Part shown: piece after piece, positions 13,215 to 64,000 of the stretch
Numbering within the stretch: position 1 is the stretch's first letter
How the letters are laid out: every line of letters starts with the position of its first letter
From: Lonicera japonica
Taxonomy: Eukaryota > Streptophyta > Magnoliopsida > Dipsacales > Caprifoliaceae
Assembly: GCA_021464415.1 (NCBI GenBank)
Contig: CM038467.1
Location: forward strand, 52,557,309-52,621,308
Direction of reading: 5' to 3'
DNA: 64,000 nt
Program-made: the position numbers and the translations under genes
Notes under the pieces: generated by a model
What the model was told of the DNA's origin: nothing
The model's database searches: none
The model's input: the letters and a program-made list of their open reading frames with translations, nothing else

Positions 13215-13220
13215 AGTTTT

Positions 13221-15048: not shown

Positions 15049-18000
15049 GTGAAAATCAACATTCCATTGCTTGACGCGGTCAAGCAAATACCTTCGTATG
15101 CTAAGTTCCTCAAGGACTTATGCACGACAAAACGAAGGTTGAATGTTAAGAAGAAGGCCTTTATGGCGGAGCAAGTGAGCTCCATCATGCAAGGCACGAG
15201 AGCCCCTAAGTTCAAGGACCCCGGTTGCCCCACAATTTCGTGTGTCATAGGAAATTGTAGGATCAAAAATGCTTTGCTAGATTTGGGAGCAAGTGTGAAC
15301 GTACTCCCATATTCTGTATATCAACAATTGGGGTTGGGTGAGTTGAAACCCACGAGGGTTACTATTCAATTAGCGGACCGATCCGTTAAGATACCAAGAG
15401 GGATAGTCGAAGATGTGCTTGTTCAAATTGACAAGTTTTATTTTCCCGTTGACTTTATCATCCTCGACATGCAACTCGTGTCGAATCCCGCTAAGGAGAT
15501 TCCAGTTATCCTTGGGCGACCATTTCTTGCTACTTCTAATGCCATAATAAATTGCAAGAATGGAATTGTGAAGTTAGCATTTGGAAACATGACTTTAGAG
15601 CTAAACGTGTTCTCTTTGAGCAATCAAAGAGACGACGATGATGATGAGGAAAGTGAACACGTAAACATGATAGAGTCATGTATCCAAGACCACTTTGTGG
15701 CAAATTTCGAATCGAAGTCAATGGAAGGCTATCTAACCACTTCCGATGAACTCGAGGATTGTATGCAAGTGTTTTCCTTGTGTGACAAACAGGTTGAGTT
15801 TTTGGAGAAAGAGGAAAACACACAATCTCCCACCAAAAAGCTTGAAGGAAAAATGGATCTCAAGCTATTGCCGAGCAATTTGAAGTATGCCTTTTTGGGA
15901 CCTTCAGATACCTTCCCAGTTATCATCTCGTCCGAACTTTCGGATGACCAAGAAGGAAGGTTAGTTCATTTGCTTGGTAAATATAAAAAAGCTTTTGGTT
16001 GGACTCTTGCCGACCTCCAAGGAATAAGCCCTTTGATTTGTACACATAAAATTCACTTGGAGGATGGGGCAAAAACATCAAGGCAATTTCAACGCCGGTT
16101 GAATCCTAACATGCAAGAAGTGGTTAGGAACGAGGTGTTGAAATTATTGGATGCAAAGATCATCTATCCAATCTCGGATAGTAAATGGGTTAGTCCAACT
16201 CAAGTGGTACCGAAAAAATCGGGTCTTACGGTAGTCAAGAACGACTCAAACGAGTTGATTCCACAAAGAGTCACCACCGGGTGGCGAATGTGTATTGACT
16301 ACCGTAAACTCAATGAGGCTACTCGTAAAGATCATTTCCCCCTCCCCTTTTTGGATCAAACTCTAGAGAGGGTAGCGGGTCATGAATATTACTCTTTCCT
16401 CGATGGTTTTTCCGGGTACAATCAAATTGAGATTGACCTAGATGATCAAGAAAAAACCACCTTTACATGTCCTTTTGGTACCTTCGCTTATCGAAGAATG
16501 CCCTTTGGTCTATGTAATGCACCGGCCACTTTCCAACGGTGCATGCTAAGTATCTTTAGCGATATGGTGGAAAGGACTTTGGAAGTTTTTATGGATGACT
16601 TTACCGTCTATGGTAAGTCATTCGACAATTGCTTGGCTAACCTGGAACAGGTCTTGGGAAGATGCGTGGAAAAACAATTGGTATTGAACTGGGAGAAGTG
16701 CCATCTTATGGTTACCAAGGGAATTGTTTTGGGGCACATCATTTCTTCAGAAGGAATCGAGGTGGATAAAGCTAAAATTGAGTTGATTGCTAAACTTCCT
16801 ACACCGAAGAATGTCAAAGATGTTCGATCTTTTCTAGGACATGCCGGGTTTTATAGGAGGTTTATCAAGAACTTCAGTTCCATTTCCAAGCCCATGTGTA
16901 GTCTACTTCTCAAGGATGCACCCTTTCAGTGGGATGCCAAGTGCGAGGAAGCCTTTGTCTCTCTGAAGCATATGCTTACTACTGCGCCGATTATGCAGAC
17001 ACCGGACTGGAGCTTGCCATTCGAGCTTATGTGCGACGCAAGTGACTATGCGGTGGGAGCGGTTCTTGGTCAACGAAAAGACAAGAAACCGGGTGTGATA
17101 TACTATGCAAGTAGGACCTTGAATGATGCGCAAATGAACTACACCACGACAGAGAAAGAGCTTCTAGCAATTGTCTTCGCCCTAGACAAGTTCCGATCCT
17201 ATTTGATAGGATCGCCAATTGTGATTTTCACGGATCACGCGGCATTGAAGTATCTATTCACAAAGAAAGATGCCAAGCCGCGGCTTTTGAGGTGGATACT
17301 CTTATTGCAAGAATTTCATTTAAGCATCAAGGACAAAAAGGGAGTCGAGAACGTGGTGGCCGATCATCTGTCTCGACTCACTTTTACGAACAACATTGAA
17401 GAAAGCCCGATCCAAGATTCGTTTCCAGACGAACAATTATTGGCAATCTCGACGCTCCCATGGTATGCAGACATTGTAAATTATCTTGTAACTGACAAGA
17501 TACCAAAGTCATGGGGCGCACAAGATAGAAAAAGGTTTTTGAGTGAAGTGGGTCGATTCTATTGGGATGAACCGTACCTGTTTAAGTATTGTGCGGATCA
17601 GATTATCAGACGGTGCATCCCAGAGGAAGAAGTGGAGAGAGCTCTATCTTTCTGTCATTCTGAGGCTTGCGGAGGACACTTCTCGGCAAAGAAGACCACC
17701 GCGAAGATTCTGCAAAGTGGATTGTATTGGCCGTCGCTTTTTAAGGACGCACAACGCTTTTGCAAGGCATGTCAAAGATGCCAAATGCTTGGAGGGATCT
17801 CCAAGAGGAATATGATGCCTCTCAACCCAATTCTGATGATCGAAATCTTTGACTGTTGGGGCATCGATTTTATGGGACCATTCCCATCCTCCTACGGTAA
17901 TCTTTATATTTTAGTTGCCGTAGATTATGTTTCGAAATGGGTGGAAGCCCAAGCGTGTAAGAAAAACGATCACAAAGTGGTGATCCGATTTCTGAAAGAA

Positions 18001-18747
18001 CACATTCTTGCACGTTTTGGCACCCCCAAGGCAATAATAAGCGATGGCGGTACTCACTTTTGCAATAAACCGTTTCAATCATTAATGCAAAAGTACGGTG
18101 TAAATCACAAAGTATCGCTCGCTTATCATCCTCAAACTAATGGTCAAGCCGAGTTGGCAAATAGGGAGATCAAACAGATTCTAGAGAAAACGGTAAACCC
18201 GAACCGCAAGGATTGGTCATTAAGACTGACCGACGCACTTTGGGCTTACCGTACTGCGTACAAAACAACTCTAGATATGTCTCCCTATCGCATTGTATAT
18301 GGAAAACCATGTCATTTGCCAGTAGAGTTGGAACACAAATCATACTGGGCAACTAAGATGGTTAACTGTGATTTCGAAAAAGCCGGGCTTGACCGTAAGT
18401 TGCAAATTGATGAAATCGAGGAATTGAGAAGAGATGCATATGATAATGCGAAGATAAGCAAGGAACGTGCCAAAATTTTTCATGATAAATCTATTTTAAG
18501 GAAAGAATTCAAACTTGGGCACAAAGTTCTTATTTATGATACTCGTCTGCATCTCTTCCCCGGGAAATTGAAGTCTCGTTGGACCGGCCCATACATTGTC
18601 CGTCATGTATTTCCTTTTGGGGCTGTGCAAGTTGAGGATCCCAAAACCGGCTATGTTTTTAAAGTAAATGGACAACGTTTAAAGCCATTTTTAGAATTCC
18701 CAATTCGAGAGGAGTCCACCCCTTTCGAAGACCCGACTTATGCCTAA
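15049..18747 (+). CDS. pol: Athila pol: protease, reverse transcriptase, RNase H, integrase
   Basis: The frame is open for 1232 codons and in phase with gag across the single TAA. The first sense codon is GTG, so a separate start is not implied. The order is: protease with DLGAS (15280-15294); reverse transcriptase with the active-site FMDD (16588-16599) preceded by [12 protein letters not shown]; RNase H with [17 protein letters not shown] at about 17020-17070; integrase HHCC zinc finger at about 17650-17790 (CKACQRC); integrase core with DFMGPFP (about 17865), ISDGGTHF (about 18040) and [10 protein letters not shown] (about 18150), giving the D, D, E triad; and a C-terminal WTGPYIV module. 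All catalytic motifs are present and I see no internal stop. The frame ends at TAA 18745-18747. The protein makes and integrates the cDNA. Confidence 0.92.
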
Positions 18748-18897: not shown

Positions 18898-19063
18898 GCA
18901 TGATCGATCATGGTTATACCCATGATCGATCATGGGATCAAATTGAGGAGGCAGTGCACTTCCATGATCGATCATGGGCAAAACCATGATCGATCATGGT
19001 GAAATTTTCCTGCGGCAGTAGACTTCCATGATCGATCATGGGCAAAGCCATGATCGATCATGG
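18898..19063 (+). promoter_or_regulatory. Six palindromes CCATGATCGATCATGG before the Athila accessory ORF
   Basis: Copies lie at 18898-18913 (first base G instead of C), 18920-18935, 18962-18977, 18984-18999, 19026-19041 and 19048-19063. Starts within each pair are 22 bp apart and pairs are 64 bp apart, exactly as in the LTRs. The array lies between the pol stop (18747) and the accessory ORF (ATG 19348), with a C/T-rich leader-like stretch from about 19095 to 19347. It is probably the promoter-proximal region of that ORF. No clear TATA follows; TCTTAAAAAC at about 19070 is the nearest AT-rich candidate. Confidence 0.85.
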
Positions 19064-19347: not shown

Positions 19348-20541
19348 ATGGCTGCCATTACTCCAGTTAACAAGCCAGAAGAGCTTCAAGCCGCGAGGGG
19401 TGGGTACCACGGGTTCCGTAGCCGTCAGGAGTACGATTGGTGGAATTACGCTTTCAGGAACCGGGCTGTGATGATCGAGAGGCCTGTGATTATTGGTGCC
19501 TTGGACGATTTCCCTCAAATGGGAACATTCGAAAGACACGAGGGGTGGGTTCAATATTTGCGACAACCAGGTAATCAATGTAATCTCACTCTATGTCGTG
19601 AATTTGTAGCAAGTTTGGTGCGTGTGCCCAATGCTGCTTATGCCTATGTTGCCCACGTACGTGGGAGAACTGTTCCTTTCAACCTCGAGGTTGTTAGTAG
19701 AGTCACGGGGATTCCGGCATTGCCGGATGGCAGCTATGACCTCCCTCATTCAGCCCGTATTTTATACCCCACTGATGACGAGTTGGCTACGTTCTTAGCC
19801 GGTCGTCCAATGACTTGGATTGGCACGCAATTCGATAGGAACAATTTAGCACCACAATTCAGGACCCTGTGGCTTGTTGTAGCCAATGCGTTAGATCCCA
19901 CCTCGCACATTCAACATTTGTACACCTATCATGCCTATGTTCTATATGTAATTGCTCGCAATAGGCCGTGTTGTTTGGTTCGCTACATAATGCGAAAAAT
20001 CATGAAAGTCTATGACACGGTAGCCCATAACGAAACGATAAAATTTGGTGTGCTTCTGACCCGCATTTGTTTGGAGGCGGGTGTCCAAGAAAGGGACACC
20101 GATGTCAGAAAGATACAGCGGGCCCCGATAAACAGGTCCACCCAGGCTAGAGCCGCCGGACAACTGAGAAATAGGCCAAGTTCTTCCACAGCCGCACCAC
20201 AACAGGGGGATAGCGAAGAAGAAGGGGCAGAGGAAGCAGGAGCGGATGTTCCGGGTCAGTCAAGGCGTAGAAGAAGGGCAAGCTCTGGGCCTGTGGATGA
20301 CAATAGGGAGTTCATTAGAGAGCAGTTTGAGCAGATGACTGCTTTGATGCAGACCGGGTTTGCTAGCGTCAACGAGAGGGTAGAGATTATGGTATTGCGT
20401 CAGGACCGTTTGGAGGCAGATATTGCAGCTCAGGTCGAGGCACGAGTTGCAGCTCAGATGACGACTCAGCAGGAGTTCATACGCCAGCAGTTCGAGGCGT
20501 TGTATGGTCGTTTTCCACCACCCCCACCTTCTGATATGTGA
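19348..20541 (+). CDS. Athila accessory protein (plant transposon-protein type, 397 aa)
   Basis: An intact frame from ATG 19348 to TGA. Residues about 1-235 form a globular domain (EYDWWNYAFRNRAVMIERP, then FVASLVRVPNAAYAYVAHVRG, then VVSRVTGIPALPDG). By memory of the pattern this resembles the putative plant transposon protein domain often found downstream of pol in Athila elements. Residues about 265-310 are low-complexity and acidic, then basic (SRRRRRAS). Residues about 318-385 are likely coiled coil (REQFEQMTALMQTGF, then RLEADIAAQVEARVAAQM), and the tail is proline-rich. It sits where Athila env-like ORFs sit, but I see no signal peptide or membrane segment, so I do not call it an envelope protein. 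Six palindromes identical to those in the LTRs stand upstream. Its function is unknown; a DNA-binding regulator of the element is my inference. Confidence 0.75.
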   Translation: MAAITPVNKPEELQAARGGYHGFRSRQEYDWWNYAFRNRAVMIERPVIIGALDDFPQMGTFERHEGWVQYLRQPGNQCNLTLCREFVASLVRVPNAAYAYVAHVRGRTVPFNLEVVSRVTGIPALPDGSYDLPHSARILYPTDDELATFLAGRPMTWIGTQFDRNNLAPQFRTLWLVVANALDPTSHIQHLYTYHAYVLYVIARNRPCCLVRYIMRKIMKVYDTVAHNETIKFGVLLTRICLEAGVQERDTDVRKIQRAPINRSTQARAAGQLRNRPSSSTAAPQQGDSEEEGAEEAGADVPGQSRRRRRASSGPVDDNREFIREQFEQMTALMQTGFASVNERVEIMVLRQDRLEADIAAQVEARVAAQMTTQQEFIRQQFEALYGRFPPPPPSDM

Positions 20542-21885
20542 TGATGATGTGATAGCCTGAAAACTCTTTAAGTACCTATATTTATGCTTAGTTTTATTTT
20601 ATTTCTTTTGGGTTGTATTAGAATTGAGACTTGATGTTAACTCTAGAACTTGGTTTTAATGATTGAATATTATAGTTTTTGCTTTTGAATTCTAATTCTA
20701 ACCCGTTTTGTGAATAGTTTTTGTTTATCTCTTATTTTTGTCTCATGGAGAGCAAAGCCATTGTAGCCCTTCCGTGCGTTGTTGTTGTTATCTTTACATT
20801 GAGGACAATGTGTGTTTCAAGTGGAGGGGGGTACGTTATTTTGTGTTTATTTTGTTTGGCTTGCTATCAGTCATTCCCATGAGTAGAAGAGATTTGTTCA
20901 ATTTTTTTTAGAAGTTTGAAAATTGATGATTGATTGATATTTTGTTCGATGAAGATTATTGTTTCATTAGCTTTTGGCATGAATTCTTTGATCTAGATAG
21001 GAATTTGAATGATAATCTAAATTGCCTTGCTCCACTTAGTCTCATATCCCGTTATATTCTCATGCTCCACATGCTAGATTGCTTCGGTTGTTTTCAATTC
21101 GGTAATAACACCTAGATTTATTTTCATTGAGAGAAGAGAAATTTTTGTCCAAAAATAATGGAAGCTCTTTCGAAAAGATCCTCCAATGAGAGGACAAAAG
21201 CATAGCACTTTGATAACTTGGATGACTTTTATCCTAATATTGACTTAAAGCTTCACTTGACTAAATCTTAAGTCTCTTTGTCTAATATTATGGATGGGTA
21301 TAGGTTGCCATATGGGAAAGGGTGAATAGCTTCCTTTGAGCGCCAATGAATGAGCAGAATTTTGAAAAATTTCATAAGTGAGACCGCTGCCCCCCATAGA
21401 GACGAAAACCACCCTGATCTAATTTAGCGAAATTTTCAAGTAAAAGATCAAGAAAGTGCTTAGAATCGACATATCTTGGAGCTTTTGTTTTTGAAAAAGT
21501 TCTCTCTTCCTTCTTGAATGATTATGGCTCTTTGTGTTTATATCGAATTGTTTGAATCGAAGTCTGGTATTTGAGCATTGGAGAATATGTGATTGTGTTC
21601 TAAAGGAGATAGGTGAATTAGATGATCATTCAAAAGTCCGTCATTCTGGAAAATTGATAATAATGCCTCTTGCTTTGCAAATTGAAACTTGAATCTTCAT
21701 TCTCACCATTCATCATGATCAAACTTCCAATGTTTGTAGGTATCATTTCTGAAAACCTTCACGAGATGCAACTCGTCTTCTTTGGGAACTTAGAAGTTAA
21801 CATCTTTTTGTATAGTGTTTTATTTTTGTAATTATATTTTTTTTTGTCTTGCTAAGGGACTAGCAAGAGATAAGTTGAGGGGAGT
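20542..21885 (+). other. Athila 3' untranslated region with polypurine tract
   Basis: No coding region is supported. The tract AAGTTGAGGGGAGT (about 21872-21885) immediately precedes the 3' LTR and would prime plus-strand cDNA. A second purine tract, AAGTGGAGGGGGG at about 20819-20831, follows ACATTGAGGACAATGTGTG. Confidence 0.7.
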
Positions 21886-23535
21886 TGATAAACGCATAAT
21901 ATTGTCATGCATAAGCTCTTTCCCAGAGTCGCATGACGCGTTTGTTGCTTTAATTCTGCCTAATTATCCGCTTATCTTGAGATTAGTGTCTTAGCGAGTT
22001 TGGTATCTAACATGGCCCAAGTTGGTGTGTATTTTGTAGTATTCCATGTGTTTGTAGGATTGGAGTACAATGGCATTGCATGAAGTGATCAAGAGTAAGC
22101 TCGGAGGCTTGCAAAGTGCTGAGTGAACAAGTTCCAGACCCATGATCGATCATGGGCAAAGCCATGATCGATCATGGTTGCAAGATTTTCTGGCAGAACA
22201 CTTCCATGATCGATCATGGGCATAACCATGATCGATCATGGCCCTTGCAACTTGGCCATTTCACACCCAAAATGGGCTATTTTAGTGGTTCAAGCTATTT
22301 TAGATATTTAGTTAGATATTTTGCAACCTTTTAATATATATTATTTTTCTCTTAGCTTCTTGAAAAAAAAAAAGGAGATCTAAGTTTTTGTACAAGTTCT
22401 AGAGAGAAGTGGGAGCTAAAACCTTGTAATTTCTTCTTCTTCTTGTAAGTTTACTTTGATTTTAAGAAATGAATGCTTCTTCTATAATTCTTGTTTCGAG
22501 TATTATGGAGTAGTCTTTTACTAAGGTTACGGAGGTGAACCGCGATATAATATTCGGTGATTTATGGCTCAATCCATGTTTAAAGTTTGAGAAATAGTTG
22601 TAAATCCTTTTCTTCTTCATTTCCTCCATTGTTGCAAGCTTTCTAGGTATATTCATAATATTAAGACTTTATATGCCTTGTATATTTAGTGCTTGGTTGT
22701 TAATGAACATACAACATATTTATATGGTTCTAAAAAGCTTGTAGTCCCTTTCCCCCATCCATGGAGTTTTTCCCTCTTCATAGAAATTATGAATAGTTCT
22801 TAAAACTCCATAGATGGATTTTAAATTTGTTTAGCTTATCTTTGATTCATTTATTGATATATTGAGTGCTTCTTACACTTTATGTGATACTTAGACTCTT
22901 TATTTTCTACCATATGTGATAAATGATGAGTTGACTAATTTATCCCATAAACTTTATTCCGTTGCATTGTTAGGATTCACTTTATAATTTTCATTCTTTA
23001 AATCATGAGATTACCACACTTGCTTGATGTTAAATCTTTTTATGATGAGTTCGTCATATCTATCTCGGATTAGCTTCATCGGGAATGGGTTGCCTTGCTT
23101 CACACCCGTAGCTAAGAGGTAGGAATGATAACCTCGTCTTTGGTGGTATGTCGTTTGTATCTCTCTTGATATAGCTTCAATTCGGGAATGAGTCGCCTAG
23201 CGTCGCACCCTCTGCTATTGAGAGATACACCAACATTCCCCATTTCTCGAGAATCCTTGTGTTCTAATCTTAGTATGAGCTAATGATCACCGTTTCTTAA
23301 ATCGTAACTAATCTCACCTACCTTAGTGCTTTCTTATTTATTTTCGCATCTGTTTTACATTTACGTTGTTCTACAACAAACCAACTCACAGAAACCAGAA
23401 AATCACTTAATCCGTAATCCATTCCATTCCTCTTCACTTATCCCTGTGGTTCGACACTCGGACTTCCGAGACTATATTACAACTTGACGTGCCTGCACTT
23501 GGGCTCTATCGCAACGCGTAACTTAAGCGGCGTCA
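21886..23535 (+). repeat. Athila 3' LTR
   Basis: This 1650-bp copy of the 5' LTR carries palindromes at 22140-22155, 22162-22177, 22204-22219 and 22226-22241. The differences I see from the 5' LTR are T/G at about 22002, an extra A in the poly-A run near 22363-22373, A/G at about 23098, and one missing C near 23314. Confidence 0.95.
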
Positions 23536-23540
23536 ATGCT

Positions 23541-37683: not shown

Positions 37684-37684
37684 C

Positions 37685-51944: not shown

Positions 51945-53675
51945 TGTGAAAACCCGCGTTTTCAGCCCCTTCGCTTTTCATCTTTATTTTTCGGAACATG
52001 TTGGAGTTTTTATTAATTACAAAAAACATGACATTTTGTAAACAATTCAGAGTCGCCAGTTTGTTTTACTAAACAAACAAAAGTTTTGTGTAAAAGAGAA
52101 ACATTTATGAATTAAACACTTTCTTAAACACAATTAATGCGGAACCAGACAATTCAAAGGTTCGGGGATTAAATTACGAATTGGGAAGGGATTAGGCACC
52201 CAATTCTCCCTTTCGGTCTCTAAGTAGAATATGCGTTAAGTATTATCACAGATTCGCATGCGCGTGTAATATTATCTCACTTCAGCCTTTTATTTTTAGA
52301 AAACCGGGATTTTGGGGTGGGGATTGAAGATGTGTGCTTCGTTTTTCGCCCTTTTTGATTTTAGAAATCAGTGTGTATGTGTGTGGTTTCACAATTGTTT
52401 TGTATAGAGATAGACAACGAAATCAGTGCATTTTGATAAAAATCAGAGCTTTTCAGAAGCTAATTTAGTTTGGAATTGGTATCCGGCAATCATCGAGATT
52501 TCTTTTGTCAAATAGTGTGCCACAATTTAATTACTTAAATTGGCATTTGACAATTTTCATACTCTCACATTAGATATTTAATTCAACGCCCAAATTTATA
52601 GATTAAACGGGGCACAAAATTAATCAATTCCGGTGTGGATTGAGACTGATAAAATTGAAAATAACTGATAAAAATATTCCTTCAAAAGGTGATTTTTTCC
52701 CAACCAATATTTTCAATGTTGATAATCTAACTCAAATCTAAAATTTGAACTTATTTGGAATTTAAACAGCAGTCTAATATGTGAGACTGATAAAAAATAC
52801 CCTGATAAAAATATATTTTTAAAATACAATTTTTTCTCAATCCACACCTTCTATAATTAAAATAAAGCTCAAATATGAAATTTAGATTGATTTGGAGATA
52901 AATATCACTCTTTACATGCGATTCAATGAAAATACACGGATAAAAATTGAAATTCAGAAAATTACGAAACTTACCAAAAAGCTTTCCCAAGGTGAATATA
53001 GTATTTCGAACACTTCTCCCAAGATTTTCCACTTTTTCTTCTCAAAAAAGGCACAAAAGAGGTCTATTTATAGCAAAAAAGACCAGTTGTCCCTAGGACA
53101 ACTGGTCTTGTCGTGGGGACAACACCTATTGTCATGGGGACAACACAAGTTGTCCCTGGGACAACTGGTTTTGCCTCCTTTTCGGTTTGCGCAACAGTTT
53201 TTACAATTTCAGCCCAACCGAGTATCGGAATGATATGATTTTTTGATATGTTGTTCCCCATGATGTAACCTACATCCTGACCAAATTTCAGCTTATTTGG
53301 ACTTCGGGAAGTTTTCCTTTTGATTCCCGAGGTGAATTCCCAGTTTTCTAAATTTCCGGAGATCCGGCCGTCGGAATATGCTGATTTTTGAGTATGTTCC
53401 TCCTTGTAGTATTACCTAACAACCCTCAAAGTTTGAGGACGATCAGATATGTACAGATATTTAATTTCACCTTCCAGGAGTTTTGACGGTTACCGATTTT
53501 CGGCAGTTTCTGGTAATTCTCGTAACTTTCTGTCCGGGTGGCCTTTCTTCCTCATTCTTTGACCTGTATCATATGTATAGAGTATATATTCATCCATAAA
53601 TGTCTATGCATGCCTGTGTGTTCATTTTTTTGATGTTCGGGATTTGTGCGAGGGTCGAAAAATGAGGTGTTCACA
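51945..53675 (-). repeat. Tat-2 3' LTR
   Basis: It begins TGTGAAAACCCGCG and ends GAGGTGTTCACA on the + strand (1731 bp). A minus-strand TATAAATA lies at 53065-53072. The conserved U5 boxes lie at about 52049-52225 (AGAGTCGCCAGTTTGTTTTA, then ATTAGGCACCCAATTC). The palindrome array 53081-53164 stands directly upstream of TATA. It is related to, but distinct from, the LTRs at 29963 and 37685. Confidence 0.88.
53065..53164 (-). promoter_or_regulatory. Tat-2 LTR promoter: TATA box and four TTGTC-N5-GACAA palindromes at 21-bp steps
   Basis: Read on the minus strand, TATAAATA (53072-53065) is preceded by four inverted repeats of TTGTC and GACAA with a 5-bp gap. They are centred at 53094, 53115, 53136 and 53157, exactly 21 bp apart. 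The one nearest TATA has 12-bp perfect arms (GACCAGTTGTCC and GGACAACTGGTC). The distance from that repeat to TATA is about 15 bp. Confidence 0.9.
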
Positions 53676-53870
53676 GACCCTCTCGGCCTAGGTTCTTTGG
53701 AACAAAGAAACTAGGACGATACTGAGAATGCATCATTTTGAGGCGCTCGCATGAATCCTCCATGACATGTTTTTGGAAAATAATGCCATGCTAAATGATG
53801 CTTGTGCTGTCTATCTCTGCTAGGAATGGATGGGCGATTCAGGACGCGTCCTGTGCTTTGTAAAAAAATG

Positions 53871-54046
53871 TTGAGCTGTGGTAATCCTACTTCGTAGGAC
53901 TGTTCTATCAACGAATCTGCTTTCTGGGGTTGAGCTGTGGTACTCCTACTTCGTAGGACGGTTCTGTCAACGAATCTGCTTTCTGGGTTGAGCTGTGGTA
54001 CTCCTACTTCGTAGGACGGTTCTATCAACGAATCTGCTTTCTGGGG
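53871..54046. repeat. Three tandem copies of a 59-bp unit
   Basis: Copies start at 53871, 53930 and 53989. Each contains TTGAGCTGTGGTACTCCTAC, TTCGTAGGACGGTTCTATCA and ACGAATCTGCTTTCTGGG. The position matches the 40-bp array of the non-autonomous element, just inside the 3' LTR. Confidence 0.9.
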
Positions 54047-54772
54047 TAAAAAAGTTTTTCTTTTTTTTTATCCGGTTTTTCTATGCATTTTTTTGATAAG
54101 TTTCCTTTCTTTCTAAAAAGATGTAATCACGATTTCCTTGGTTTGTAAACCTCGTGAGTGCTTTCCTTGGGGTTTTCACCTTACACTCTTGAATTTTTAC
54201 CAATGTTTCTACAATTTTCAGGACTCTTGCCCTTTGCAGTTTTTTCTTGGTTTTCGGAGAACATTTTTATTTGCACCTGCACCTTTTCTGTTTTTTTATG
54301 CCCTTATATCTCCCTCTGATGTTTTCAAGGCTTTTTTCTTGATGCCCGTCTATTTAATCTCTTGCATGGCCGGCAGCCTTTCTCACCCGAGACGTAGCCT
54401 TGAGCCTTTTGGCCTAGCTGTCACTCTCGGTGTGGCTCTCGCTGTTACCTTCTTTCTCTGTTTTTCTCGAATTCTCTTTATTTCTTCTCTCTTGGTGCTG
54501 TGGGTTTTATCCTCTTTTCTACTCTTTCAATTTTTCTTGTACCCACTTCGTTCTCTTCAAATAGTTTCTCCACTGCTAAGGGCACATTTCCTGTGTTATG
54601 TGGAAGTCTTGGTTTAAATTCTCTGTGTTGGGTTTTTACCGTGCATGTGTTGTGGTGTTTTCTTGGCTTGAAAACTTCAGAATTCCATGATTCCTCTTCT
54701 TCTTTTTTTTTTTTAAAAAACTGATAAAAAAATGACATTTTTATTCCGGATAAAAGAGAAAAAAGAGGTTTT
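54047..54772. other. Non-coding stretch before the antisense gene promoter
   Basis: A T-rich, spliced-leader-like or UTR-like sequence. About 54365-54540 matches 34075-34260 of the non-autonomous element. The frames here show no domain. Confidence 0.5.
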
Positions 54773-54849
54773 TATTTTTGGGGACAAATGGCTTGTCTTG
54801 GGGACAACTGGTTTCTCCTGGGGACAACTAGTTTGGTTCATATATATAT
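54773..54849 (+). promoter_or_regulatory. Promoter of the antisense plant-mobile-domain gene: GGGGACAA array and TATA
   Basis: GACAA cores lie at 54783-54787, 54803-54807 and 54823-54827, exactly 20 bp apart, each within GGGGACAA. The middle one has the full TTGTC-N5-GACAA form (54793-54807). TATATATAT follows at 54841-54849, 14 bp after the last core. The gene's ATG is at 54953. Confidence 0.85.
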
Positions 54850-54952
54850 GAGCCTTCTTTGCTTGCATTTCTCCCACCTCCCATAGTTTCTTTCTCTCTC
54901 TAAGTTCATATTTTCTCCTTGGCTTTTCTTTGCAATCCTTTTGTTCTTTATC

Positions 54953-57741
54953 ATGTCGGCTTTTCATTCTTATAATAATAGTATTCATTCTCTCCCTCCG
55001 GATTGTCTGCTTGGTGATTCTCCGAATATTTTTACCACGGGATCTGACGATTTTACTTTCATATCGCCGCATCACGATGATTGGGAGGGGATAGTATGGC
55101 AAGGTGCTGAAGGTGCGGCTTACCGACGTGCTGTGTATACTGACGCTGTCGTTTCTGATATCAACCCCCCGTGGCTTATCATGGAGCCAGAACAGCATTT
55201 ATTCTTCAATCGTACCCGGGTATTTCCAAATGCAACATATATTATGAAATGCTAATGTACTGCTTTATATGTTTATGCAAGTGCCATGTTAGTTGTCTTT
55301 AAAAATAAAATGATAATAAAATCAATTAATAATATATAATGTTAGTAATAATAATAGTGGTAATAATAGTAGTACTAGTAGTACTAGTAAATAGTAATAG
55401 TACTAGTAAATAGTGATAGTACTAGTAAATAGTGATAGTACTAGTAAATAGTAAATAGTAGTAGAACATGTTTCCTGCAAAAGCAAATAATACCATGTTA
55501 GAAATTCCTATATATGCCTATATGCTAAAATGCATGTTTATCATTTTCGAGCCCCCCTTTTTTCTTTTCTTTTTTTTTAAACCAGGTAAGTCGCATATGC
55601 CATGGTTCTTGCAACTCTGTCTATGACGCTTGGGTATCCTCTCCTCAAGCGGTTAGGGAGTTCCTCGGTGTTACTCCTTTTGGCCCTCTTCTAAACGCAT
55701 TGCTTGGGCACGCCCAGCGTGGTTCGAATCTTACGACGGCGATGGCGGAAAGGTGGTTTGATACTACCCACACCTTTCAGTGGGGTTGGGGGGAGATGAC
55801 CATGACTCCCATAGACGTGCATGTCTTGACGGGTTTGCCTTTCGGGGGCCGGCCGATCGATTGTTCTCCTTCAGCTAGGATTACCGAGGCGGGGATGCGA
55901 GCTGCTCTGGGTTGGTATTACGAGGGGAATGAGATCCCTCATGCTGTTTTGGTTGAATATCTGAAGCAGGAAAGTTTGCGCATGGTAAGCAGGGGCAATC
56001 TTCTTACCCGACAAGAGGTTCGTCAGTATGCTAGATCACTGCTCCTCTTAGTTCTGCAGGAATTATTTACAGCTCGCGGTAATAATGATGCAGCTGTATA
56101 CTGGCTTGCCATTCTCAATGATTTCAGCACTATTCATTCTTGGGATTGGGGGGGGGGACTTGTTCTAGCCGTTCTGTATGACTCGATGGATAGTTTTTCG
56201 AGGCGCGAATCTTCTACTCACCGGGGAATGTGCATGTTATGGGAGGTACCCCCCCTTCTATCTCTTTTATCATAATTTCCACGTTTGTATAAGTTTCTTT
56301 GTTAATCTTTTCTTTATATTTTTTTCAGGCCTGGTCTCTGGCGTATATCGGTAGTGGTCCGGCACAGCTTGGTGTTTGTAGGAATCGTTCTTTCCCCTTT
56401 TTTCGTCGTTTTTCCCGAAAACTATGTACGTCGAAGCCATTCCGTTATTCTCTATCGCATCTTTGCCACGGAGATTTCTTTGGGCTTAGCCCTGATCGGG
56501 TACAAACTTTATCCCTTGGTTCATTTTATATTTCCCTTCTTTTTGAAATTGTTCCTTATACTTATGTCTCTGTAGGTGAACTGGACCCCCTGGTCGGAAT
56601 TGCAGGTCAGCCGGCTTTCCATTATATCCGGACATTTTCTCAGACACGGCGGCTGTTGCGTCATGATTATGACTATTGTTTCTATCTGGGCGAGAGGGTG
56701 ATGCGTCAGCATTCTCCTGGGGCTACTCTCAAGTCCCCTGCTCATCCTCATTCGCGTATGCGTTTTCCTTCTCAGGTTCCTGCTGAGGATCATTTAATCT
56801 TGTTTCAAGGATGTGATTATACGAGGTTCCAGTCGGATATTCCTTATCGCGAGTTTGCACGCATTTATCTGTTGCGAGAGAATGTAGGTGCCACCCCTGA
56901 TGACATTTATACACGTTATACTAGGCTAGGGGGAAATTCTCATTGTATTCGTGGGCAGGACTGGTATGCGATGCATGTGTCAAAATCTGGAGAGTCTGCT
57001 CACCCTGGGTATCGGTCTGCTAGTTCTTCTGATGATGAGAGTGGGAACCAAAATGAGAGTACGGATCAAGATGATGTCATGGATCAGGCGACTGATGGGA
57101 TTACTGGTGATGTAGAGGGTGTAAGTCAGAACCTTGGTGGACATGAAGACATGGATATTAGCTTTGGTCACGATGGTGGTGGTGTTGATGGTGGGTTCAC
57201 AGGCGGCAATGTGGCTATGAGGCCACCTGTTTTTGTCAATCATCCGATGGGTGAAGGCTTGGGTCATACTACAGGTTATCCAACGGGGCAAGGGCAAGGC
57301 TTTGTTGCAGGTTATCAAACAGAGCAAGGGCGAGGTTTTGTTGCAGGTTATCAGACGGGGCAAGGTTCGAGTTTTGATTTGCCCGCCTTCTCTAACTTTA
57401 CCTCTTTCCTGAATAACAACCCTTTTGGTGGCGAGGTACCCCAAGACTCTGGGAGGGAATTCCGAGATATGGTACGAGATCTCAACCAGGCAGAAGCGGC
57501 TAGACGTTTTGAGAGGGATCAAGGGATGCCTTCTGGACCTGGCCAATCGTCCCGCTCTTGTAGTTTACCTGTATTGCCGCAGACCAAGTCTTTTACTGCT
57601 GCTTGGGAGGAGATGCTGTATAACCTCCGATCTTCTCCCACTCCTGAACGTTTTACTTTTCCCGGGATTCCAAGTGGGAAAAATGTTGTAGTCTCGATAG
57701 ATGAATTACGCAGTCTTTATGATACTGCCACGGATTATTAG
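54953..57741 (+). CDS. Plant-mobile-domain (PMD) protein carried antisense by Tat-2
   Basis: ATG 54953 follows a TATA box by about 105 bp. Exons are 54953-55219, 55586-56245 and 56329 onwards, with GT/AG borders that keep one frame. A further intron at about 56425-56574 (GTACGT to CTGTAG) is possible. The domain part contains DDWEGIVWQGAEGAAYRRAV, then LTTAMAERWFDTTHTFQWGW, then GEMTMTPIDVHVLTGLPFGG, then LAILNDFSTIHSWDWGGGLV, then FYLGERVMRQ. This is the layout of the plant mobile domain (aminotransferase-like) family. The C-terminal third is acidic, then has glycine repeats (GYQTGQG type, about 57255-57370). TAG 57739-57741 ends the frame, but in-frame sequence to 57993 (DRSFRDAMRLASNAAAREAP, then RRRGPPSRRSQ) looks coding, so the stop may be a mutation. 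Host PMD proteins of the MAIN/MAIL1 group act in the nucleus in transposon silencing; a role of this copy is inference. Confidence 0.8.
55365..55465. repeat. Minisatellite in intron 1 of the PMD gene
   Basis: An about 19-20-bp unit, AGTACTAGTAAATAGTGAT, is repeated about five times within the intron 55220-55585. Confidence 0.8.
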
Positions 57742-58229
57742 GCCTTCTTAGTTCACTGTGTTCCCCAACCATGGGACTACGATAGGTCTTTCCGTGATGC
57801 TATGAGGCTTGCTAGTAATGCCGCTGCTCGTGAGGCTCCTGATCCTGGTGCACCCTCTCGCTCTTCCATGGGGTCAGTTAACGAGGCCGTGCTCATAAGT
57901 CGTCCTGCCCCTCGTCGTCGTGGCCCTCCTTCTCGACGTTCTCAGCTTGGTTCGGCGAAGAATATTGACATGTCATCGAGACGTGGCAGTTAGCTAGTTT
58001 TTTTTTGTTTTTTGAAAAAGCATCCTTTATGTTTTATTTATGAAATCGTGTATTTTGCAAAAAAGAAACAAGTCTGTGTAGCTCGAAAATGATATGTATG
58101 CAAACGTATGTAATGTAGACTCTTTTTCGAAAATATATTTAATATTTTATTTTGAGAAAATATCAGTTGTAAGTATTGTTATGTTTGTTAATAAAGATTT
58201 TGGCCTGGAGGCAAAAGTTTTATTTTGGG
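57742..58229 (+). other. Possible C-terminal extension of the PMD gene and gap to the next promoter
   Basis: The PMD frame stays open after TAG 57739 up to TAG 57991-57993, with a basic Arg/Ser/Pro-rich tail (RPAPRRRGPPSRRSQ). This resembles a nuclear-localisation type sequence. From 57994 to 58229 the sequence is AT-rich and non-coding. Confidence 0.5.
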
Positions 58230-58312
58230 GACAACAACTTTGTCTTGGGGACAACAGCTTTGTCCTGGGGACAACTGCTTTGTCTTTAGACCAATGCCCC
58301 CTCCTATAAATA
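58230..58312 (+). promoter_or_regulatory. Promoter of the DUF7745-like gene: TTGTC/GACAA array and TATA
   Basis: GACAA cores lie at 58230, 58250 and 58270, and TTGTC cores at 58240, 58260 and 58280, so the period is exactly 20 bp. The two complete palindromes are TTGTCTTGGGGACAA (58240-58254) and TTGTCCTGGGGACAA (58260-58274). TATAAATA is at 58305-58312, 20 bp after the last core. The ORF begins at 58397. Confidence 0.9.
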
Positions 58313-58396: not shown

Positions 58397-59662
58397 ATGT
58401 CTTCCTTTCGTTCCGATGAATCTCTCCGATTTCTTCAGTCTCTAGGGCAGCTCATGCGTGCTGACAATGCCCTAAACTGGGGAGATTGGAGTCGTCTTTT
58501 CTACTGGCGATCTGCTGAGATTCGATATAGTTTTCTTCTTTGCGCCTTACCCCTTTGGGACCATACCGATCACGTCTTTCGCATAGGCATTGACGAGCTC
58601 TGTCCCACTTATGAGGAGTTTTCTTGATTTCTGGGTCAGCCTCTCAATACCGAGTTAGCTATTTTGGATCTCACCCTCAGCCCCCGCTTGGTTCTTGCTG
58701 AGATTCTTCAGGTGGATTCTCGGGTTTGCCGTTCGATGCTTACTCCAACTGGTTTAGATTTACGTCGCCTAGTCCGATTCTTGCTCGACTCTGCTGATGA
58801 TCCCGTTTTTACTCGAGCTCGCACCGTAGGTGCCATGGTATGCTGTTTTGCTACCCTGCTCTTTGTTACTGGGGATTTCCTGATTGACCCAAATATAGTT
58901 TTACTAGTTCAGCAGGCTTTACTGGGTCGTTCGATTGTTCCTTACTTGTTGGCCGAGACCTTCCTCGGGTTAGATGCTATGGTTGCTAGTACTTTTGAGT
59001 TTTTCCATGGGAGCCTGATATTGCTGTATATGTGGCTATTGGAGCGCTTTCGATTTGTATCTGATAGGCATGTGGGCCCTGCCATCCTGCGCAACACTGC
59101 GCGTTTTTTCAGACGTACCCTCTTGCTTAGTGATTCTAGGAGTGCTTGCATTTGGACTGGGGTTTTCTGCGAGATTTCTAGATCTATCCGATGGCACATA
59201 CCGTGGTGGCGATTGAGGTCGATGGTTTTATCTACTGGTGGTCAGTATTACGTGCGTATTCGGGGCCTCTTCTTTACTTCTTTCTACATTCCTTCCAGAT
59301 TGCTGCGACAGTTCAATATACCCTGGATGGATTTGCCTCCACCCCGCGATTTTTCGACTGACTCTGTTACGGTTGATACCCGGCTTGCTCTTCGATTCAC
59401 AGCTATGTGGGTAGGACGTTTCATACAAGTTTTCGGTGCTGCTGAGTTTGGGATCTCCCGTCCCATGGCGGAGGTTCACGTGAGGAGGATTTGGGATAGG
59501 GTCCAGGATCGGGTTCTTGGTAGTTTGCGCCAGATGCGTTGGTTTGAGTTTATGGAGGAGGTACCTGTGGTTGATGCTATTGTGCAAGCTTACAAGTTTG
59601 TGGATCAGGCTCGTATTGAGTTTTCGGCTGAAGATGATCAGCTGCCACCCCCACTAGCTTAG
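58397..59662 (+). pseudogene. DUF7745-like protein carried antisense by Tat-2, one in-frame stop
   Basis: ATG 58397 (SSFRSDESLRFLQSLGQLMR) opens a frame of 421 codons to TAG 59660-59662 (ending QLPPPLA), broken only by TGA 58625-58627 after YEEFS. At that place related proteins usually have Ser-Arg-Leu/Phe-Leu-Gly, so CGA changed to TGA by a single CpG transition is likely. Features are FYWRSAEIRYSFLLCALPLW near the start, then PTYEEF, then a long helical region (LFVTGDFLIDP, then ILLYMWLLERFRF, then WHIPWWRLRSM). The pattern matches the DUF7745 group found in plant gypsy elements. Function unknown. It has its own TATA and the same operator-like array as the LTR. Confidence 0.7.
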
Positions 59663-59917: not shown

Positions 59918-60802
59918 TTACTGATAGTATTTCTTCAAACGGTCTAGATTAACCGGAGAACTGAACTGTTGCCCATCTGTATCTGTGATTATGACTGCTC
60001 CTCCGAACAAAATCTCTTTGACAATATACGGCCCTGTCCACTTCTGTGCGAATTTTCCCCTTGGATCTGTAGTTGGTTCTCTGATTTCTTTTAGCACCAA
60101 ATCATCTATATGTATTCCCCTGATTTTCACTTTCTGATTGAATGCTCTAGAAACCCTTTTCTGATACCCTTGCTGATGGTAGGCGGCTTTCAATCGTTTC
60201 TCGTCAAGTAGCGCCAACTCTTCATAACGGCTTTGAACCCAGTCTAATTCTGCCACTGTGCTTTCCATAACTACCCTCAGAGACGGGATATCCATTTCTA
60301 AAGGCAGTACTGGTTCCATCCCATACGTTAATGAAAATGGTGTGGCGTTTACGGAGACCCTTTCTGTAGTGCGATATCCCCACAATGCATACGGCAGTTT
60401 ATCGGCCCATTCTCGACCACCTTTTATCATCTTGCTAATCATATTCTTCAGATTTTTGTTTGCCGCTTCTACTGCACCATTAGTCTGTGGCTTATAGGGG
60501 GAGGACTTGTGCCTCTGTATCCCGTATTCTTCCATCACATCGTTGGCTTCTCCTTCAAAGTGGGTTCCATTGTCAGACACAATCTCATGGGGTACCCCGT
60601 ATCTATAGATGATATTCCTTCGAATGAATTTTGCTACCTTCTTAGCATCAAGCTTCGCATACGATTCTGCCTCGACCCACTTTGTAAAATAATCGATTGC
60701 GACCAGTATGTACTCATGTCCATTACTTGCTGACGGCGATATTTTTCCAATGACGTCTATTCCCCAAACTGAGAACGGCCAAGGAGCTGTCATAGTGTAC
60801 AA
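59918..60802 (-). CDS. pol: Tat-2 integrase core and C-terminus (part of pol)
   Basis: An open minus-strand frame of 294 codons. It has the integrase core with WGIDVIGKISPS, then FTKWVEAESYAKLDAKKVA, then IVSDNGTHFEGEAN, and NGAVEAANKNLKNMISKMI. The D, D, E residues are present. The C-terminal module is WTGPYIVKEI, ending NLDRLKKYYQ. A TAA just upstream, near 60876, separates it from the zinc-finger part in an otherwise continuous pol, so the full polyprotein is broken. It would integrate the element cDNA. Confidence 0.88.
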   Translation of the reverse strand: MYTMTAPWPFSVWGIDVIGKISPSASNGHEYILVAIDYFTKWVEAESYAKLDAKKVAKFIRRNIIYRYGVPHEIVSDNGTHFEGEANDVMEEYGIQRHKSSPYKPQTNGAVEAANKNLKNMISKMIKGGREWADKLPYALWGYRTTERVSVNATPFSLTYGMEPVLPLEMDIPSLRVVMESTVAELDWVQSRYEELALLDEKRLKAAYHQQGYQKRVSRAFNQKVKIRGIHIDDLVLKEIREPTTDPRGKFAQKWTGPYIVKEILFGGAVIITDTDGQQFSSPVNLDRLKKYYQ

Positions 60803-61372
60803 TTCTTTTGGGGGAAGTTTTTGAGATTTTACGTAGACTTGGCAGAGATGGCATCTTTTGACATGACCATTACAGTCTTATTGCATAGTGGTCCAGTAAT
60901 ATCCTTGTCGAATTATCTTCCGAGCCAAAGTGTGTCCACTCACGTGGGGTCCGCATTCTCCCCCGTGCACTTTGCTCATAACGGCTTGAGATTCCTCTTC
61001 TCTTAGGCATCGAAGATGTACTCCGTCATACCCTCTCTTGTACAATTTTCCTGCATAAATGATGAATTGAGCTGCCAATCTCCGAAGTGCTATCCGAGTC
61101 TTCTTATTGGCATGATCAGGGTATTGTCCTTCTTTTAAGACCCTCCAGATGCCGTAATACCAGGTGGCTGAATCTACCAATTCCTCATCTTCATTTTCAC
61201 TGTCAAGGACCATGCAGTATGTCGGGACCTCTCTTTGCTCAATAGTGATCTGTACTGCCTGTATATCTCCCGGGATTTCTACCATTGATGCCAATGTTAC
61301 CAGTGCGTCGGCAAAATTATTTTGACTGCGGGGTACATGGTGCAGTCGGCGATTTCCAACCCCACGTTGCAA
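60803..61372 (-). pseudogene. Tat-2 second RNase H end and integrase zinc-finger region
   Basis: From 61372 leftwards the frame reads HHVPRSQNNFADALVTLASM, the end of the archaeal-type RNase H. It goes on through LYKRGYDGVHLRCLREEES and VHGGECGPHVSGHTLARKII to YYWTTMQ and then TAA. Next comes DCNGHVKRCHLCQVY, the second half of the HHCC zinc finger. The stop lies inside the zinc finger. Confidence 0.8.
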
Positions 61373-61966
61373 GCCTCATATTCAGCCGTGTTATTGGTGC
61401 AGTCGAATTGCAACCGGAACGACAACGGTGCGTGAATCTGGTCTGGCGAGATTAAAAGAATCCCTATTCCATAGCCATTTTTGTTGGCAGCTCCGTCGAA
61501 ATACAATTTCCTTTTACCCTCTGTTTCTAATGCCATGATAGTTTCATCTAGGAAGCTGAGATCTCTTTCTTCTTCCTCTTCCAAAATAGGATTACCAGCC
61601 AAGAAATCTGCGATGATCTGACCTTTAATCGCCTTCTGCGTAACATATGTGATATCGAACTCAGATAACAAAAACACCCATTTAGCCATCCGATTAGTCA
61701 ACACTGGCCTCTCGAACAAGTATTTCAATGGATCCAACCGGGCTATTAGAACAACGGAAAATACGAGCATGTAATGGCGTAACTTATGAGTTGCCCAAAT
61801 CAAAGCTGCACACGATCTTTCCAGTGGTGAGTAATTTCTTTCACAGGGTGACAACTTCTTACTGATGTAATAAATCGCCTGCTCCTTTTGACTCTGGATC
61901 AAGTGTTGGGCCAACATAGCCCCTGCGGCAATTTCATTGACTGTGAGATACAATAATAAGGGAAGG
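61297..61966 (-). pseudogene. Tat-2 RNase H and start of second RNase H, with internal deletion
   Basis: The minus-strand reading covers AAGAMLAQHLIQSQKEQAIY, then YISKKLSPCERNYSPLERSC, then IIADFLAGNPILEEEEERDL, then KLYFDGAANKNGYGIGILLI, then NNTAEYEACNVGLEI. After this the frame jumps to the HHVPRSQ region. The middle of the second RNase H (about 60 residues, with the next catalytic Asp) is missing, so the domain is dead. The upstream side is cut by the LTR starting at 61967, and the RT lies beyond it. Confidence 0.8.
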
Positions 61967-64000
61967 TGTGAACACCTCATTTTGCGACCCTCGCAAGAAT
62001 TCTGATTTTCAAAGAAATGAACACGCATGGATGCATGAGCATTTTTAGATGCACAAAAACTATGTACATGTGATACAGGTCAAAGAAGAAAGCCAAAATG
62101 ACCCCGGATGAGGAGTTACAGAATTATCGAAAATTATCGGAATCGAAAATCGTCAAAAACTCCTGAAAACTTGTGAAAGAAGAGTTACACATTTCGGATC
62201 ATCCTCAAACTTTGAGTGTTGTTAGACATTATCATGAGGAGTAGTATACTCGAAAATCAGCTCAATCGAACAGGCGAATCTCCGAAAAATTCAGAAAATC
62301 ATGAGTTTGATTCGGGTAGTCAAATGGAGGTCTTCTCGAAGTTAAAATGGTTTGAAGTTTGGTAAGTGGATAGGCCTTATTGTGGGGAAGAGCATATTAA
62401 AATTTCAGCTTTGTCAGACATGGGATCCTCAAGAATCAATTTGTCTACCGTGCAATTCTAGTTGAAATGTCCTTCGTAGCAAATTAAAATAAATAGTGGC
62501 CTTCCCGAATTCTGATCGACCTCAAATTTGGACACAAGTTAGAAAACATTTGGAGGGAAAACATATCAGAATGATCCAACGGTTGTAAGTTCAATTTTCG
62601 AGATTGTTGTACGCAAGTACGTTTCCTACGCGAGAACAAACTCTTTGTACCAAGCCAAGGAGATAGAGTCCTTCCCGAACTCCGATAGTCTCCAATTTTT
62701 TACAGAGTCTAGAAGACTTATATTGGCAATACATATCTAAAATTAAGCATTATCCAACGGTTAGAACCCGACTTTTCGTTCAAACAAGGGACCTTGTCTA
62801 CAACAAGTACCTTTCCTACGCGAACACAAACTCTTCGTACCAATCAGAACGAAAGGGAACCTTCCCGAAATCTGATCGACCTGAAATTTTTACACAATCT
62901 AGAAGAGTTCTATTCCCAAAACATATCCAAAAATCAGGATGATCCAACGGTGGGAAGGTTTCTCGATAATTTCCAAGAGTCCTAGTTGCAATCTCTTTTC
63001 TTGCTCTCCAAGTATTTTCTTCAACTATAAATAGACCCCCCCCCTCCATTCATTATTTTCATCAACAATCAAGGGGATTTCGTGGCACACACCAAGAAAT
63101 CCTTATTCTCTCATTCCAAGGAGGCTCAGGTATAATTTTCTCTCTCTTCTTTTATTTATTCGTCAGTTTTATAATTTATATTCCTGTCTGCATAATTTCT
63201 ATTACTTGATAGCTTTTCAAAACTTTTTTTCAAATTGTTTTTCAAAACTAAAGGCGTATAATAAACCCTAATCCAATTCTAAAATAGTATTATTACTTTC
63301 TTACTTTTTCAAAAGTCCGGATTAGCGGTATTGTTATACGAAGGAATCGATAATCGCTATATATCCAATCTAACTCATAGATTGCAGTGTGTATGTGACA
63401 AATACTCGATTATGAAAGCATTATTGCCATCTATATCGGTTTAATCAATAGACTTTGGTATACGATTGGTCAACTCGCCTCATATCATATCGAGTATAAG
63501 ATTCCACATTGAATCAGTTTCCGAAAAGCCCAATACTTTTCAAAATCACTTGTTTCATTGCATTTATTATTCTCAAATTCTTTTTTTTTCAAATCACACA
63601 CACACACACACACACTTATTTTTAAATCGTGGGCGAACTAGGAAACACATCGTTTTCATCCCAACCCCAAAATCCCTGTTTCTAAGGCAAGCAGGAAAAG
63701 CTGAGAGTAATAGCAATAGCATGCAAGAGCTGAATTATAACACACGCATATCCTACTCAAGAGACCGAAAGGGCGAATTGGGTGCCTAACACCTTCCCGA
63801 TTCGTAACTTAGTCCTCGAACCTTCGAATCAACTGGTTTCGCATACATTGTGTATAAGAGGATATTTAGTCTATAAATACGTCTCTTTTACACAAACCTT
63901 TTTTGTTTGTTTAGTAAAACAAACTGGCGACTCTTATTCTTTTCAAAACCGATTTCCAAATCAACAACGGAATCGCCGCCCACGAGGACCCCCGGGCGTC
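61967..64000 (+). mobile_element. LTR of the 29963/37685 family, + orientation, running off the window
   Basis: It begins TGTGAACACCTCATTTTGCG and matches, reverse-complemented, the LTRs at 29963 and 37685 along its whole visible length. About 20 bp are missing at the right end. TATAAATA lies at 63026-63033, and the U5 box TGGCGACTCT at 63925-63934. It is clearly more diverged from that pair than they are from each other. GAAGG (61962-61966) would be its left target duplication. Whether it is a solo LTR or the 5' LTR of a full element cannot be decided here. Confidence 0.88.

Follow-up and report, generated by a model that had tools for sequence, protein, structure and literature searches.

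Palindrome arrays at the LTR and accessory-gene promoters of Tat and Athila-like retrotransposons in Lonicera japonica suggest element-borne regulators with matching switches

The stretch of DNA analysed here, called the window, comprises 64,000 nucleotides of the Lonicera japonica genome (assembly GCA_021464415.1, contig CM038467.1, positions 52,557,309 to 52,621,308) and is plant DNA with nested long terminal repeat (LTR) retrotransposons. Two different retrotransposons of the window, which from their layout we take to be a Tat and an Athila-like element, each repeat a private palindrome at their main promoter and at the promoters of their extra genes (Table 1). In the Tat element two accessory genes, encoding a PMD protein and a DUF7745-like protein, are antisense to gag-pol and lie between the integrase and the 3' LTR, as in Tat elements with antisense accessory genes. 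The PMD assignment comes from Pfam (PF10536, E=4.8e-18, in the open reading frame (ORF) 55529-56275) and the exons were inferred from frames and GT/AG borders, while the DUF7745 label is weak (PF24924, E=0.013 for a 344-aa piece, under the curated cut-off). Since a Lonicera protein (P0001) with 44% identity to the DUF7745-like protein matches the PMD model (1.6e-5, also under the curated cut-off), the two genes may perhaps form one broad PMD-like group. The window copy of the Tat element is degenerate, with a broken pol, one stop in the DUF7745-like frame and a PMD frame interrupted close to its 3' end; the termini of its 3' LTR, determined by eye, are TGTGAAAACCC and GGTGTTCACA.

All seven exact copies of TTGTC-N5-GACAA in the window fall within three arrays, in the promoters of the LTR, the PMD gene and the DUF7745-like gene, and the exact 20- or 21-bp steps that a preliminary description of this DNA had reported for these arrays were confirmed. 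Chance was rejected as their origin, given that a first-order Markov simulation yielded a mean of 0.07 exact palindromes and a maximum of 1 (300 runs), and that in 30 runs no simulated window had three or more equal palindromes clustered within 100 bp. With up to two mismatches the motif is not enriched in the window (41 versus 36.1 expected), which leaves exactness and clustering as the source of the signal. A scan of the window for gapped palindromes that recur, with arms of 5, gaps of 0-8 and a listing of the 25 commonest, placed TTGTC-N5-GACAA and TGATCGATCA, the core of the Athila-like word CCATGATCGATCATGG, first among those that are not A+T-rich (with shifted readings), followed by TCGGA-N2-TCCGA and TCCTA-N5-TAGGA with 5 copies each; only TTGTC-N5-GACAA and the Athila words formed arrays of at least three equal palindromes within 100 bp.

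Each of the three Tat arrays lies near a TATA box, as described before, but the distance from the last palindrome edge is 14 bp (LTR), 12 bp (PMD) and 10 bp (DUF7745-like), or 22, 20 and 18 bp from the palindrome centre, instead of the 14-20 bp first given. The half-sites are spaced about 10 bp apart, and because they alternate at this interval the DUF7745-like array can be read equally as GACAA-N5-TTGTC and its repeat unit is not fixed. Conservation between the Tat arrays is 86% in the arms, 64% in the centre and 44% in the linker, figures that are partly built in because the units were chosen by their arms. Seven of the nine copies of AGTTGTCC in the window are found inside these arrays (53085-53166, 54802-54829 and 58269-58276), possibly by chance.

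Table 1. Features of the Tat and Athila-like elements in the window (positions counted from its first nucleotide)
Feature	Positions	Strand	Remarks
3' LTR of Tat element	51946..53676	-	gag-pol on minus strand; blastn to sibling LTR pair 29962-32008 / 37684-39730
TATA box, LTR promoter	53067..53072	-	TATAAA 53072-53067
Tat LTR array	53087..53164	-	4 exact TTGTC-N5-GACAA, at 53087, 53108, 53129 and 53150; 21-bp steps
PMD promoter array	54773..54827	+	3 units, 20-bp steps; 54793 exact, 54773 one-sided, 54813 one mismatch
TATA-like ATATATATAT of PMD gene	54840..54849	+	
PMD accessory gene	54953..57742	+	three inferred exons, 54953-55219, 55586-56245 and 56329-57742
DUF7745-like promoter array	58220..58294	+	4 units, 20-bp steps; 58240 and 58260 exact, 58220 and 58280 imperfect
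TATA box of DUF7745-like gene	58305..58310	+	TATAAA
DUF7745-like accessory gene	58397..59662	+	single in-frame stop in window copy
Tat integrase and RNase H	59918..62079	-	broken; another Tat-type LTR cuts in from about 61967
5' LTR, Athila-like element	11564..13215	+	99.76% to 21885-23536
LTR array, Athila-like	11819..11920	+	4 x CCATGATCGATCATGG, steps 22/42/22
gag and pol, Athila-like	13360..18747	+	PF03732, PF00078, PF17917, PF00665
ORF3 promoter array	18899..19063	+	6 x CATGATCGATCATG, 5 with full 16-bp word; steps 22/42/22/42/22
ORF3, Transposase_32 protein	19348..20541	+	intact, env-like position; PF20167 E=3.4e-21
3' LTR, Athila-like	21885..23536	+	array at 22140-22241

The Athila-like element (11564-23536) is a second case, beyond the preliminary description, and is young, its LTRs being nearly identical; the order of reverse transcriptase, RNase H and integrase and its PF03732 gag place it in Ty3/gypsy. 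There are 15 copies of the word CCATGATCGATCATGG in the window: four in each Athila LTR, five (with one shorter copy in addition) before ORF3, and two in another transposable element (TE) at 26.2 kb. At the LTR array the position of the TATA box is uncertain. ORF3 has 105 genome matches at 86-100% identity, a C-terminal part that appears coiled-coil-like by eye, and an RRRRR stretch. A PDB sequence search with ORF3 gave no match, IMG/VR scans with the Athila palindrome, ORF3 and PMD returned four pattern hits (L001-L004) and no relatives, and the Athila core, searched as a text string, was found in no paper of the literature searched. Protein searches, in part limited to scoring the 8000 best candidates, gave two Lonicera proteins only, one for the DUF7745-like piece and one for ORF3, and none for PMD.

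Three further ORF3 copies (L048-L050, 86-92% identity) carry six palindromes each at the ORF3 promoter, and the LTR array of four sites is kept in the two copies where it is covered, with one base changed in one L050 site; in L049 the fetched sequence is rearranged at its end and does not reach the LTR array. These copies bear on the view that duplication or template switching carried the arrays from one promoter to another, with homogenisation keeping them alike, in which case their sharing would reflect descent and not co-regulation. The arrays of the Athila LTR and the ORF3 promoter are indeed alike outside the palindromes too (11819-11923 versus 18962-19066, 86.9%), and the number of units is variable, as it is in tandem repeats. 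However, relative to the window 363/364 core bases are identical in the copies while the linkers have drifted to 282/328 (Fisher p 5.5e-15, which is only indicative because the compared copies are relatives and the comparisons not independent, identity outside the arrays lying between 0.59 and 0.94 and being subject to end effects). Moreover, the asymmetric centre TGGG reveals that the Tat LTR array is inverted relative to its own promoter when compared with the PMD and DUF7745-like arrays, and the similarity between the latter two is confined to about 66 bp. The contrast between core and linker conservation led us to reject simple promoter duplication as a full explanation, and we consider descent by copying very improbable as the explanation of the shared words.

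To follow the Tat arrays beyond the window, its own assembly was searched (886 Mb; the window lies on contig C5), and TTGTC-N5-GACAA was found 1801 times in exact form, versus 392 times for the reversed pattern used as control. The DUF7745-like piece, used as a protein query, gave at least 120 genome matches, several of them without stops, and the best 30 of these were fetched: 20 belong to the family of the window copy (family A; 86-100%, two at 78%) and 10 to intermediate B families (61-70%). The 20 loci of family A include the window copy itself (L011), and L035 and L009 are one copy. Of these 20 loci, 19 (all except L023) have an array of 2-4 units at the DUF7745-like promoter, together with a TATA box; the PMD promoter array is present in 3/3 (window, L009, L043), and the LTR array in all four copies in which the promoter part was present and fetched, with 4 units in the window, 2 in L068, 4 in L069 and 3 in L071. 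A TE insertion replaces the array part of the LTR in L009, and the stretch fetched for L043 has no LTR similarity. The three-promoter comparison did not include L041, L044 and L053 (no PMD match), L070 (LTR promoter uncovered), L067 (promoter uncovered) and L052, which has a PMD match with no TTGTC/GACAA pair upstream and no LTR similarity; L072, whose LTR was fetched for its word, was not counted.

In more distant Tat families the word itself changes. Family C (L042, L046, L047), in which the DUF7745-like protein is 43-45% and PMD pieces are 45-49% identical to those of the window, is represented by dozens of intact DUF7745-like frames at 43-45% among the matches listed, and carries TGTCGCGCGACA at all three promoters, many of the sites reading TTGTC-GCGC-GACAA (gap 4). 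Allowing at most one mismatch, TGTCGCGCGACA was counted in L042, L046 and L047, respectively, 9, 10 and 9 times in the LTR, 3, 3 and 3 times at the PMD promoter and 3, 2 and 2 times at the DUF7745-like promoter, giving totals of 15, 15 and 14 at the promoters and zero elsewhere in 7.7-9 kb, mostly at steps of 20-23, 30-32 or 42 bp. The three C stretches, 75-92% identical to one another over the listed alignments, do not contain the A word, and neither the three A stretches nor family B2 contain the C word. In B2 (L045; PMD piece 61%) the word is CATCTGTC-N5-GACAGATG, found with at most two mismatches seven times in the LTR array, once at each of the PMD and DUF7745-like promoters and once in the LTR outside the array; the B2 and C words were read off the sequences prior to counting. 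Family B3 is degenerate, with GTGTC left arms at the LTR, PMD and DUF7745-like promoters, and B1 promoters have words of the TTGTC-TTGTG-GACAA type, no LTR belonging to the same element having been found for B1. At 8 of the 10 diverged DUF7745-like loci at least one palindrome is recognisable (gap 4 or 5, one arm mismatch allowed, by eye). The co-variation among the three promoters that the preliminary description had called for is thus clear in families A and C, less clean in B2 and hinted at in B3.

A sister Tat-type family is present in the window at 29962-39730 and 61967-64000; the first of these elements has an LTR pair 99.5% identical, no ORF longer than 158 aa, a tandem array that occupies 32209-33437, and an LTR promoter with single imperfect palindromes only and no array. 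In family C, tandem repeats with steps near 69 bp and TATAG-N2-CTATA words lie downstream of the PMD promoter (L042:3809-5167). Elsewhere in the window, two copies of about 1.06 kb stand head-to-tail at 3491-5615 (88.9% identical).

Relatives of the Athila-like element behave similarly to the Tat families. In AT1 and AT2 the CATGATCGATCATG core is common to the LTR (4 sites) and the ORF3 promoter (6 and 8 sites), a few sites being imperfect; in AT2 (L059, 72%) the word is retained, flanks being imperfect in places, and the steps are 20-21 and 41-43. In AT3 (L055, L056, L061), which is at 33-34% in ORF3 and for which there are intact ORF3 frames, TAGTAAGATCGATCTTACTA-type words are present at the LTR (8) and the ORF3 promoter (9) in 3/3 copies, and the ORF3 promoters of L062-L064, with 78-87% DNA identity to L055, L056 or L061, have seven AT3-type words each. 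The arrays, their positions, the identity of the word within an element, its change between families and the conservation of its core are direct observations.

From this pattern it can reasonably be inferred that a single DNA-binding protein serves every promoter of an element, and we favour, on balance, the reading that the arrays are the element's own operators and that an accessory protein is most likely a dimeric regulator co-controlling the LTR and the accessory genes. According to this proposal a sequence-specific protein would bind the short palindrome as a dimer in both the Tat and the Athila-like elements, at copies placed before the LTR promoter, which drives gag-pol, and before the accessory-gene promoters. 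Cooperative dimer binding is argued for by the palindromes, the repeated sites, the near-helical steps and, in Tat, the adjacency to TATA. Steps come close to full turns of the helix in families A, C, AT1 and AT2, not significantly so in B2 and out of phase in AT3, these values being derived from hand-entered step lists with steps above 60 bp dropped and steps within an array not independent.

That the protein would belong to the element itself is argued by a word common within an element and changed between families, for which an accessory protein offers the simplest account: PMD or the DUF7745-like protein in Tat, and in Athila the Transposase_32 protein ORF3, the only candidate found there. 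As the sites lie upstream of TATA, activation or anti-silencing is suggested rather than steric repression, and the regulator could act in a feed-forward loop comparable to that of Tas of foamy viruses on the LTR and internal promoter. Protein and word would drift together, and because all promoters of one element must track this drift, private words would arise in each family. We infer dimer binding, co-regulation, the identity of the protein and the sign of its effect from these sequence patterns; the earlier interpretation is partly supported.

The symmetry of the palindromes would also be expected of targets of silencing or chromatin factors, or of DNA or RNA structure (hairpins, a source of small interfering RNA), in place of transcription-factor sites, and tandem repeats can be targets of RNA-directed DNA methylation (PMC10398659). 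Sites directly upstream of TATA at the Tat promoters and the near-whole-turn steps of A, C, AT1 and AT2 point instead to bound proteins, and we regard silencing targets or structure as the most improbable of the explanations weighed.

Binding by host transcription factors (for example TGTC-type for Tat, GATCGATC-type for Athila), through which all promoters of an element would respond to a single host cue (stress, a hormone or the gametophyte, for instance), is in our judgement unlikely, though it has several points in its favour. Plant LTR cis-boxes for host factors are known (PMC2829016), and the family A words contain AGTTGTCC, reported as a VANC6 target motif in Arabidopsis (PMC5735166), so that other proteins can use a word of this kind. 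On the other hand, the gap (5 or 4), the centre and the flanks shift together at the promoters of an element, as a single host factor would not require. Inverted TGTC halves are present in the Tat words with a gap of 5 or 4, and sites of auxin response factors, whose dimer gaps appear to differ from these, were set aside. The DOWN motif CATGCAGTTT of the host PMD proteins MAIN and MAIL1 was rejected, since the A, B2 and C words, compared by reading, are dissimilar to it (PMC9899485).

Several observations weigh against the proposal that each element is governed by its own accessory protein. The half-site cores TGTC and GATCGATC remain constant across families, which a host factor explains equally well, and the CCATGATCGATCATGG pair is also present in the 26.2-kb TE (26172-26209), to which no gene was assigned. 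When one mismatch is allowed, each B2 promoter has a single match to the A word, and the A and B2 words thus overlap and are not exclusive; the 26-27 bp steps of B1 are not whole helical turns; and, although related copies of family A keep their arrays as predicted, 2 of the 10 diverged DUF7745-like loci (L032, L038) have none and three (L031, L039, L040) have degenerate words only. Among the Athila relatives, the one AT4 copy (L060) contains 18 sites of the CAAGATCGATCTTG type in its LTR and none upstream of ORF3, and AT5 (L057, L058) has no such palindromes in 2/2 copies, so that the shared LTR/ORF3-promoter layout is common, not universal. In the accessory proteins a DNA-binding domain was not found, the Pfam hits being PMD, a weak DUF7745 and Transposase_32, and hhalign of the DUF7745-like, PMD and Transposase_32 sets, with shallow profiles, detected no kinship; on this result for the Tat and Athila accessory proteins, at least two regulator families would be needed. 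Finally, in Sireviruses, discussed below, four env-less elements keep their LTR boxes and six env-bearing elements lack boxes (PMC2829016). The 26.2-kb TE with its Athila word and these Sireviruses fit a trans-acting factor or a host factor.

A relative of the 26.2-kb TE is inserted in L009 (79-93% identical in aligned parts), and at the position corresponding to the CCATGATCGATCATGG pair it has four ACCGGT cores, as GGACCGGTAT and ATACCGGTCC alternating (L009:1828-1931), at steps of 22, 42 and 22, the steps of the Athila-like array with a different word. This is a hint that the operator word may have been swapped with its spacing kept. Another relative, at 48 kb (48002-48042), contains an 18-bp palindrome, GCTCTGATCGATCAGAGC (48025-48042), and an imperfect second copy; it is a relative of TGATCGATCA, and its presence, too, would be in line with a host factor.

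The closest precedent found is provided by the repeated-motif (RM) boxes of Sireviruses, element-specific palindromes with a conserved core that precede both the TATA box in the LTR and the env-like gene (Bousios et al. 2010, PMC2829016), and which their authors compared with host factor sites. Of the 13 Sireviruses that have boxes, linker copies are present in the 9 that carry ENV and absent from the other 4, which lack it (PMC2829016). Similarly, the Tat LTR has palindromic repeats upstream of TATA, the Athila LTR has an array with an uncertain TATA, and the same boxes precede the env-like or accessory gene in the Tat and Athila-like elements, not in AT4 and AT5, the latter resembling the six env-bearing Sireviruses without boxes. 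Sireviruses are Ty1/copia elements with the core CGG-CCG and a sense env-like gene, whereas the elements described here are Ty3/gypsy with the cores TGTC and GATCGATC, Tat has two antisense genes, and the word changes family by family at two or three promoters. In the literature searched, which lacked many subscription papers, no report was found of palindromes common to LTR and accessory promoters in Ty3/gypsy elements.

Other systems share parts of this arrangement. VANDALs are DNA transposons of the Mutator-like element (MULE) class, while here LTR elements with gag and pol carry accessory genes whose Pfam hits are PMD, DUF7745 (weak) and Transposase_32, a separation drawn from Pfam. Their VANC proteins recognise short tandem motifs in non-coding regions, with words that differ between related families (PMC5735166, PMC10398659), and a short family-specific motif repeated in non-coding regions is what we found as well; the VANC motifs quoted in these papers are not palindromes, however, and demethylation was measured there, whereas the present data are sequence only. 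From VANC comes the idea that motif and protein evolve together (PMC5735166). The analogy with VANC, proposed initially as the nearest, holds for the family-specific repeated motif, but the palindromic boxes of Sireviruses are closer than VANC alone. In foamy viruses the regulator Tas binds both the LTR and an internal promoter, and the regulatory genes lie before the 3' LTR (PMC4929722); the Lonicera elements resemble these animal retroviruses in the sites shared by LTR and internal promoters, at which an accessory protein would bind, and in accessory genes before the 3' LTR, and differ in that the Tat accessory genes are antisense.

For Tat/Retand elements, antisense ORFs between pol and the 3' LTR have been described and a regulatory role proposed, and gene23 of Grande was reported to have its own promoter (PMC11963269, PMC7264820). 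In the accessible text of the Retand survey the ORFs are mostly TRP28 (PF04195) and a shared promoter motif is not described (PMC11963269), whereas the genes here are PMD and DUF7745-like; PF04195 was not found by Pfam (E up to 10) in the DUF7745-like pieces, one PMD exon ORF, P0001 or ORF3. PMD-A clades are also carried by Ty3/gypsy elements, as the PMD gene is here, and the portion of that study available to us does not describe PMD-A function or cis-sites (PMC5418596).

Taken together, the data suggest that these retrotransposons carry their own regulator and matching switches. More tentatively, and with odds that we would place slightly short of even, several lineages of plant LTR retrotransposons may run private operator-regulator circuits, in which accessory or env-like genes would encode dimeric DNA-binding regulators, operators at every promoter would co-evolve with the protein and so insulate families, and elements lacking such genes would borrow or swap operators and ride on a helper.

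The role of antisense and env-like accessory genes in plant LTR retrotransposons has been called unknown in the literature cited (PMC7264820, PMC11963269, PMC2829016), and the arrays make it directly testable, because each family predicts its own DNA word for its own protein. If the proposal is true, self-regulation in plant retrotransposons would resemble that of complex retroviruses, and transposon regulators would have kin in MAIN and MAIL1, the host PMD proteins involved in transposon silencing.

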